Positions 47,882-50,631 of a stretch of DNA of 64,000 nucleotides are shown here, in pieces; the first letter of the stretch is position 1, and every line of letters starts with the position of its first letter. Source of the stretch: Sulfuricurvum sp. GTDB taxonomy: Bacteria > Campylobacterota > Campylobacteria > Campylobacterales > Sulfurimonadaceae. A model generated the notes under the pieces. The model ran no database searches and was not told the origin of the DNA. It was given only the letters and a program-made list of their open reading frames with translations. The stretch spans positions 1-64,000 of the forward strand of contig NZ_JAQTUH010000006.1 in NCBI RefSeq assembly GCF_028710345.1, in the 5' to 3' direction. Made by a program: the position numbers and the translations under genes.

Positions 47882-48320
47882 TTACCAGTGTTTTAGCACT
47901 TAAATCGTGCCATGAGCGACGATAAGGATCAAACATTGCCCACAAGAATCCAAGATAGAAAAGGACTTCGCTGACAATTCGAAAAACACTCCGATTGAAA
48001 GCACTTAAAAAACTGGGATGCGAGAGGGTAGTGATTTCAACAACCCGTATTTTCATAACAATTTTCCCGATGGTTGCACCGTATTGCATTGTAAAAAATG
48101 TTTGGTACGCAATTTTAATCATCATGTATTCTAAAATGAAGGTGTTAATCACTTCAATCATTGCTTCTACGGTTGTAGCCGCATTTATAGAGTCCCATAA
48201 AATAATCATTAAAAGCATCGAAAGCAATAATTCATCAATCCCAAAAGCAGCCGTTCGAGAGCGTATCGAAGAGAGTTGAAGCTTTTCGCGTAATATAAGC
48301 GTTTCGATGTCGTTGTTCAT
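47871..48320 (-). CDS. RDD-family membrane protein
   Basis: 149 residues with an N-terminal RTAAFGIDELLLSMLLMIIL segment and two further hydrophobic stretches, the RDD plan (RDD is replaced by RTA/AFGID). The family is small, membrane bound and functionally diverse. It overlaps purD by one base as TAATG, so it is translationally coupled to purD, and overlaps lptD at the other end. Confidence 0.82.
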   Translation of the reverse strand: MNNDIETLILREKLQLSSIRSRTAAFGIDELLLSMLLMIILWDSINAATTVEAMIEVINTFILEYMMIKIAYQTFFTMQYGATIGKIVMKIRVVEITTLSHPSFLSAFNRSVFRIVSEVLFYLGFLWAMFDPYRRSWHDLSAKTLVIDV

Positions 48321-49588
48321 TAGCGCAGTGCTTGATAAGCAATATCGGTACGGAGTTTTTTACCGGCATAATGGACTTGACCGCATAACATATAGGCACG
48401 ATCACGCGCCTCTTTAATACTCTCACCCACACCGACACACACAAGAACCCGTCCACCCGTGGCATAGAGCTTCCCATCTTCTTCGGCTACCCCCGCATAC
48501 GCGATATGGGTGTTTTCGGCAATATCACCGTGATGTATCTCATCCACCACAATCTCAGCAGGGGTAGAGTTATCATACGGATAATTTTTACTCGCCATCA
48601 CCACACCGACGGCATATTTTTCGTAAAACTCAACAGTGAGAGAATCTAATTGTTTCGTCGCCGCTTTGTAAAAAAGTTCACGGGCAGGAGTTTTGAGCAG
48701 TGGCATCAAAATCTCACACTCAGGATCACCGAAACGGACATTGAATTCGAGCGTAATCGGTTCACCCTTGACCACCATAATTCCGATAAACAAAACACCC
48801 TCAAACGGCGCACCCTCTTCTTGCATCCCGAGCAACGTTGGGCGAATAATACGCTCTTTTACTTTTTCATAAATCACATCATCTACAAGTGGAGTCGGTG
48901 CATACGCTCCCATCCCACCAGTATTAGGACCCTCGTCATTATCCAAAAGACGTTTATGATCTTGCGCGGCAGGGAGGAGGATAAAATCTTTTCCATCACA
49001 CAGTGCAAACATGGAAAGCTCATACCCATCTAAAAATTCTTCGACAACAACCCGTTTACCTGCATCCCCGAACGATTTTCCGCTCAACATCTCAGAGACA
49101 GCTACCTTTGCCTCTTCGTGACTCATCGCGATGATAACACCTTTACCCGCGCACAAACCATCTGCTTTAACAACAATCGGAGCCGTTAATGATTCGATAA
49201 ATTTGAACGCATCACCGATGTGGTCAGTTTCAATATAGCGAGCCGTCGGGATATTATATTTGGCCAAAAAGTTTTTCATATAGACTTTTGAGCCTTCCAA
49301 CTGTGCGGCGGCTTTACTTGGACCGAAAATCACCAACCCTTTGGCTTTAAAAATATCGACAACTCCATCAGTTAGCGGTCCCTCAGGGCCAACAATCGTC
49401 AAATCAATGCCATTATCGAGTGCAAACTGAGCCAATTCATGATAATCTTTGATACCGACATTTTCGCCCAACATAGGAGTTGCACCGTTACCGGGGGCGA
49501 AATAAAGCTTAGATACTTCAGGGTCTTGTTTTAAAACCCGACCGATTGCAAATTCGCGTCCACCGCTACCGATTACCATTATTCGCAT
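48320..49588 (-). CDS. purD: Phosphoribosylamine-glycine ligase (GAR synthetase)
   Basis: 422 residues. N-terminal [10 protein letters not shown] loop, ATP-grasp core ([49 protein letters not shown]) and the C-terminal domain. It makes glycinamide ribonucleotide in purine synthesis. The ribosome site AAGGTG sits directly behind a strong intrinsic terminator and a structured leader (49600-49927), which suggests that its expression is controlled by attenuation or that a small RNA gene is placed in front of it. Confidence 0.95.
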
Positions 49589-49599
49589 AAATCACCTTG

Positions 49600-49649
49600 A
49601 AAAAAAATTATCTTATCTAAAACACGTTAACGTTTCTCAAATAAGATAA
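49600..49649 (-). terminator. Strong intrinsic terminator directly before purD
   Basis: On the minus strand a nine-base stem (TTATCTTAT/ATAAGATAA) continues into a second stem (TTGAGA and ACG against CGT and GTTTTAG-side bases, one mismatch) closed by a TTAA loop, followed by eight T residues. The purD ribosome site begins two bases after the T run. Confidence 0.85.
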
Positions 49650-49652
49650 ATA

Positions 49653-49927
49653 TAACTCTGCTTCGTCAGAAGCTAGCTTCAGTAGCCCAAGCGGCTAGCG
49701 TAGATGGAGGGATTTCATTCCTCTATCGTCAAATTAGTCCCGGGCGGGCGTCTCGCAGTAGCTTCGGTTCTCAAAGCCGAAAAAAGCCACTCGAGCGTCT
49801 TTTCCGGCGACAATCTCTCACGTAAAAAATACGTTCAAACGAGACCACCGACACTCAAAAACGACTACGGCTGTGACTCCATGTATATGTAGAACCCTCA
49901 AAATGCGATTACTCGCTTCGCCCAGAG
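49653..49927 (-). ncRNA. Candidate structured RNA, about 275 nt, upstream of purD
   Basis: This non-coding stretch fills most of the 362-base gap between hemD and purD. Its ends pair (CTCTG at the 5' end, CAGAG at the 3' end). Inside are nested hairpins: GAGTGTC/GACGCTC enclosing CGGTG/CGCCG and ACGTA/TACGT, then TTCGG/CCGAA, GAGG/CCTC, TAGCC/GGCTA and GAAG/CTTC. A -10 box lies just upstream and a terminator just downstream. Conserved RNAs upstream of purD (purD motif, related to 6S RNA) are described in Epsilonproteobacteria, but this branched fold and length do not clearly match. It may be a free RNA or a purD leader. I do not assign a family. Confidence 0.6.
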
Positions 49928-49933
49928 TTAATA

Positions 49934-49939
49934 ATTATA
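49934..49939 (-). promoter_or_regulatory. Putative -10 box of the purD leader RNA
   Basis: TATAAT on the minus strand, placed so that transcription would start at about 49927, exactly at the base of the terminal stem of the candidate RNA. No clear -35 box. Confidence 0.5.
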
Positions 49940-49950
49940 ACTCTAAAATC

Positions 49951-50631
49951 TTAAAAGGGTGATGAATTTACGTTTTCAGAGGCAATTTGACGCGCTAAAG
50001 TGACAGCAGATTCGACACTCATCGTTGGACTAAGATACGAAACTATCCCGCAAGGAAGAGCTTTTTGGGTTGTTAAGCCGATGACAACAACTTTATGAGA
50101 GGGGAGAATAGAATGATTTTGGATAAAACATCGGATGGTGGATGGTGAAGTAAAAATCAATACCCCCTCTTGCGAGAGGTGAAAATTATTCGCTTCGGGG
50201 TTACATGTTGTCTCATACCCTATCACCTCATTGATATCATACCCATATTCACGTGCCACCTCAATCCAATCCGATGCCACTACTTTCGGACGGAGATAAA
50301 GCCATTTACCTTCACGTTTTTTTGAGTTTAAAACACTCGGAATCGACTCTCCATACCCATCTCCTACTTCAACATCAACTGCCCCAACTTCCCTTGCTAA
50401 CGTAGCCGTACCTTCCGATACACAGATGCATTGAAGCTGATTCCAATCGAACTTATAATTTTCTAAAGCTAAAACAGCCTGTTTGGAGGTGAGGATAACT
50501 CCTTCATATTGGGAAAAATCGATAGATGGAGCTAAAAAAGAGATAGTGAGTATAGGGATGTGAATAACCCCATCATAAGGGGTTTTCGAGATGAGATAGA
50601 TGGGGCGCAAAAGCGTACCCCTTACTCCCAC
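49951..50631 (-). CDS. hemD: Uroporphyrinogen-III synthase
   Basis: 226 residues with the two-domain HemD pattern: [65 protein letters not shown] and [13 protein letters not shown]. It closes the tetrapyrrole ring in haem synthesis, needed for the multihaem cytochromes encoded here. It overlaps guaA by ten bases; the start is chosen from the frame alone. Confidence 0.85.

Follow-up and report, generated by a model that had tools for sequence, protein, structure and literature searches.

A 6S RNA gene and a dispersed structured element in the gap upstream of purD in Sulfuricurvum

What occupies the 362 bases that separate purD from a hemD-like gene in a Sulfuricurvum genome? The gap (49589-49950) lies in a window of 64,000 nucleotides, the whole stretch of DNA that was analysed (Sulfuricurvum sp. 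GCF_028710345.1, contig NZ_JAQTUH010000006.1, positions 1-64,000), and the original prediction, made from the letters alone, had placed in it a single undescribed RNA of about 275 nt, possibly serving purine-linked attenuation of purD. The content of the gap is a 6S RNA gene, an inserted dispersed element and an intrinsic terminator, not one 275-nt RNA. The reading as a 6S RNA gene with a passenger insertion is held at a probability of roughly nine in ten; the 6S RNA gene is the ordinary part of this arrangement and the dispersed element is the new one.

The gap and its signals

No database-supported gene lies between purD and the hemD-like reading frame, so the gap is non-coding as first described, and a tmRNA/tRNA search of it gave none. 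A low-stringency Rfam scan across the gap returned RF01069 alone, the other matches being due to chance. The -10 box that had been pointed out, TATAAT, stands at the same place in nearly all of 100 homologous loci (Table 1), with TAnnAT at that position in 100 of 100, figures that are biased upward since these loci are mostly the best-scoring RF01069 matches; the sequence agrees with gnTAnaAT, the sigma70 motif of Epsilonproteobacteria (PMC3847290). The terminator with eight T residues ahead of the purD ribosome site is likewise borne out by its fold energy, and was missed by a GC-based terminator scan.

Table 1. Features of the purD upstream gap and its flanking genes, in window positions and in the order of transcription
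Feature	Position	Strand	Basis
hemD-like uroporphyrinogen-III synthase	49951..50631	-	NF004590, 90 bits, under its cut-off
-10 box TATAAT, 6S RNA promoter	49934..49939	-	same place in 98/100 homologous loci
6S RNA, ~190 nt (ends placed from the closing stem)	49738..49927	-	stem, alignment, fold
Closing stem P1, 5' strand UCUGGGCG	49919..49926	-	8 pairs
Inner helix past bubble, 5' strand GGUUC	49892..49896	-	98.7% of cells paired
RF01069 (purD RNA motif) match	49738..49868	-	77.1 bits, full model 1-125
Inner helix, 3' strand GAACC	49766..49770	-	alignment
Closing stem P1, 3' strand CGCCCGGG	49739..49746	-	alignment
Dispersed ~82-nt three-hairpin element between 6S RNA and terminator	49653..49734	-	91 bits, model R1
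Element hairpin 1 GAUAGAGG...CCCUCCAUC	49703..49727	-	both-side change at 7/8 pairs
Element hairpin 2 AGCCGCUUGGGCU, near-invariant sequence	49684..49696	-	alignment of copies
Element hairpin 3 GCUUCUGACGAAGC	49660..49673	-	both-side change at 4/5 pairs
Intrinsic terminator: hairpin 49649-49608 + T8 49607-49600	49600..49649	-	-15.5 kcal/mol, z -5.5
purD ribosome site AAGGTG	49593..49598	-	sequence; close behind T8
purD (phosphoribosylamine-glycine ligase)	48320..49588	-	TIGR00877, 493 bits

Identity and structure of the 6S RNA

A search with Rfam models and a covariance comparison of purD upstream regions had both been proposed as checks. The window was scanned with all Rfam models, and RF01069 was matched well above its gathering threshold (77.1 versus 41 bits), which places the RNA in that family by curated score, likewise upstream of purD. 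The earlier pointer to an epsilonproteobacterial purD motif connected with 6S RNA was thus right, and the description of the RNA as undescribed was wrong for this part, which RF01069 covers. In C. jejuni the RNA upstream of purD, once proposed to be a purine riboswitch, was reported to be a 185-nt 6S RNA whose 5' end lies upstream of the predicted motif and whose fold comprises a closing stem, a bubble and terminal loops; only rRNA and tRNA are more transcribed among the non-coding RNAs, a 13-nt antisense pRNA is present, and the corresponding region of H. pylori is also 6S RNA (PMC3847290). RF01069 is a truncated model of this RNA: it leaves out the initial ~60 nt, and with them the 5' strands of closing stem and bubble, and its Rfam type is Cis-reg, whereas the whole molecule here is ~190 nt. 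The Sulfuricurvum RNA shares with its C. jejuni and H. pylori counterparts the locus, closing stem, bubble, sigma70 promoter and approximate length (~190 versus 185 nt), and differs in the ~82-nt repeat that here separates the RNA from its terminator.

A sample of 298 genomes from across Campylobacterota gave RF01069 in 286, with a single match per genome, and 39 of 41 congeneric genomes have it as well. Twelve complete-looking genomes gave no match (G006, G007, G028, G040, G117, G174, G218, G224, G245, G274, G283 and G294), a single genus (g42) accounting for four, and may hold a diverged 6S RNA or have lost it. The canonical 6S model RF00013 gave no match at E <= 10 in the Sulfuricurvum genome and matched 0 of 121 Campylobacterota genomes, while control genomes do give matches. 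Because RF00013 is absent and RF01069 is near-universal and single-copy, the RF01069 RNA occupies the 6S slot in this phylum. Canonical 6S RNA (E. coli ssrS) resembles it in the overall rod, closing stem and internal bubble, in contrast to the covariance-model result; since RF00013 misses the Campylobacterota RNA, the tie to other 6S RNAs is made by the fold and by the published C. jejuni and H. pylori data.

The structure was evaluated in an alignment of 45 diverse loci, cut from closing-stem start to closing-stem end, in which the RNA measures 179-200 nt. The first eight pairs of P1, which lie outside the Rfam model, contain one unpaired cell in 45 loci with varying sequence (UCUGGGCG/CGCCCGGG here, at -14 to -17 kcal/mol; CCUAGAUG/CAUUUGGG and CCUGAGCG/CGCUCGGG elsewhere), so that the closing stem covaries strongly, and the inner helix shows both-side change at four of its five pairs. 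Over 25 pairs, 97.5% of cells are paired versus 85.1% in shuffled alignments, both-side change is seen at 16 pairs versus 10.1, and the covariation score is 0.513 versus 0.276; all of these figures collapse once the partner is slid. Folded by itself, the 6S part is an unbranched rod with a closing stem and central bubble, and the earlier objection that the branched shape is unlike 6S RNA fails. The fold energy of the full length has z = -2.9 and that of the 6S part z = -1.65, which is unremarkable, and the structural case is built on covariation because single-sequence folding is weak evidence. As a separate observation, a conserved UCGUUUG in the terminal part pairs with the P1 5' strand in 94% of cells (alignment A3, columns 4-10 and 96-102), possibly as an alternative fold or by chance G-U pairing.

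The dispersed element

The element that follows the 6S RNA was described with a covariance model (R1) built from 34 copies, which show strong covariation and a near-invariant middle part. It has no match in Rfam, and nothing was found in a literature search for such a repeat. The covariance model detected 14 strong copies in the Sulfuricurvum genome; in a wider sample of the order, 32 of 150 genomes gave matches, and 14 of 61 genera were represented among them; element-like sequences occur in 35 of 41 congeners. Copy numbers run from 9 to 45 in six genomes counted in detail, 45 being reached in each of two congeners, and 37 and 38 copies occur in two genomes of other families. A scan of 84,980 species genomes for the exact core gave 83 stretches, all in Sulfuricurvum, Sulfurimonas, Sulfurospirillum, other Campylobacterota or Helicobacteraceae. 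The exact core also occurs in an IMG/VR viral contig (L346:1309-1339), which may reflect phage transfer or host flank. Tandem copies with short spacers (L208:1403-1583, L322:384-488, L276:60-191) and, in two congeners, a longer form of 116-121 nt with an internal insertion of ~38 nt (G330:C14:317620-317740, G332:C74:157557-157672, G332:C14:6784-6901) were also seen.

At the 6S site itself, 30 congeneric loci could be compared: the element is present in five, a remnant in one and absent in 24, and at most insert-free congeneric loci the 6S-purD gap is about 70 nt and holds the terminator only. The carriers are scattered in the purD tree, yet their copies at this site have identical hairpin sequence, and the simplest reading of the two together would be one old gain followed by several losses.

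On these data the insert probably belongs to an undescribed family of structured dispersed sequences of ~82 nt confined to Campylobacterota, either mobile or a multi-copy intercistronic RNA. Of the two, a REP-like non-autonomous mobile DNA, whose single-stranded hairpins would be substrates of a putative transposase, is our first choice by a modest preference. Like REP/REPIN-RAYT systems, the element is a short hairpin sequence dispersed between genes in tens of copies, with only one of 66 distinct copies with context overlapping a large ORF and the rest intergenic, and it is found in both orientations; where the flanking genes are co-directional (51 of 60), it is oriented with or against them without bias, 26 versus 25. 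Its presence or absence at one site, the 6S locus, and the existence of tandem copies also favour mobility, and a CTAC (GTAG on the other strand) adjoins the first hairpin as in REP/REPIN. Unlike those repeats, it is 82 nt long with three hairpins, has a core whose near-invariance would be unusual for a dead repeat, and is confined to Campylobacterota in the exact-core scan. Against a REP-like origin it also counts that terminal inverted repeats were not seen and that no link to a RAYT gene appeared at the tested loci: with the covariance model no copy was found within 1.5 kb of 24 Y1/RAYT transposase loci, the Sulfuricurvum genome has no Y1_Tnp match and no RAYT gene flanked by the repeats, and transposase presence does not track element presence across genomes. 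An autonomous mover flanked by element pairs was sought as well; the pairs examined flank an asparaginase (NCBIfam) and a porin-like gene (by eye), neither of which is a mover. Integron attC sites carry a core-site pair GTTRRRY/RYYYAAC, and a reading of the element as attC was rejected, no such pair being seen.

The second choice, tentative yet worth keeping in view, is a functional structured RNA or intercistronic element, acting in mRNA end protection, processing or termination and selected at many sites. Compensatory changes in two hairpins together with the conserved core (34 copies) argue for it, as does the position of copies just behind stop codons, at a median of 2 nt after the upstream stop in the 25 copies whose two neighbouring genes are both sense-strand genes. 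The equal use of both orientations and the scattered losses at the 6S site argue against it.

Relation to purD and to a longer RNA

The proximity of purD raises the question of whether the 6S RNA acts on it. Rfam types RF01069 as a cis-regulator, and a cis-acting purine-responsive attenuator or riboswitch would agree with the terminator ahead of the purD ribosome site, with guaA upstream and with purD directly downstream of the RNA in 96 of the same 100 loci, a share subject to the same upward bias (here purD lies at 150 nt); such synteny counts against a purely trans-acting RNA, which needs none. However, four congeners retain the RNA without purD directly behind it, with purD not found in the flank examined at three of these loci (L046, L050 and L051) and 1.3 kb away at the fourth (L058), so that at the four loci checked the RNA does not occur only in cis to purD. 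The RNA also has an independent closing stem and its own promoter, no anti-terminator pairing between RNA and terminator was seen by inspection, and the terminator sequence varies among congeners. The C. jejuni homologue is abundant, constitutive and accompanied by a pRNA (PMC3847290). Given these points and its near-universal single copy, the purine-linked attenuation first suggested is unsupported, and a purD attenuator is judged very unlikely. Retention of the RNA without an adjoining purD and the abundance and pRNA reported in the literature speak for a 6S RNA that acts in trans rather than in cis, with read-through into purD possible; the other suggestion, a small RNA made in abundance and perhaps feeding purD by read-through, fits.

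Barely credible is one new structured RNA of ~275 nt that would span 49927 to about 49650, have its ends paired and contain five or more hairpins. The minimum-energy fold computed for this full length does pair both ends, through AACUCUG/CAGAGUU (-10.7 kcal/mol in the window sequence), but this pairing links the beginning of the 6S RNA with the end of the inserted element, reaches only -4.4 to -5.4 kcal/mol in four other insert-carrying relatives, where the genuine closing stem has -14 to -15 kcal/mol, and is impossible at loci without the insert. The last ~82 nt are a repeat with further copies in the genome that is missing at 24 of 30 congeneric loci. The paired ends and branched shape of the original prediction arose because the 6S RNA and the insert were folded as one molecule.

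Returning to the 6S RNA gene with its insertion, the family match, covarying structure, promoter, terminator, single copy per genome and insertion are shown by the present analysis. Transcription would start ~7 nt past the TATAAT (49939-49934) and yield a ~190-nt RNA with its covarying closing stem around a central bubble; the transcript would continue through the ~82-nt element to end at the terminator, and the 3' tail is probably trimmed. Trapping of RNA polymerase is the established mechanism of 6S RNA. Accumulation of an abundant transcript, the 6S fold and a pRNA would be expected from the C. jejuni and H. pylori homologues. Acting in trans, the RNA would mimic an open promoter and occupy sigma70 RNA polymerase, and synthesis of a short pRNA by the polymerase, with the bubble as template, would set it free; some read-through may feed purD.

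In summary, the identity of the gap is settled as that of an ordinary but important housekeeping regulator, and two repairs to the annotation of RF01069 are suggested, namely a 5' extension of ~60 nt and a change of type, with 6S RNA in place of cis-regulator. The dispersed element is present in many intergenic regions of environmental Campylobacterota, where it will again be taken for a leader or small RNA. If it is indeed an undescribed family, one of its members has here entered the transcription unit of a 6S RNA.
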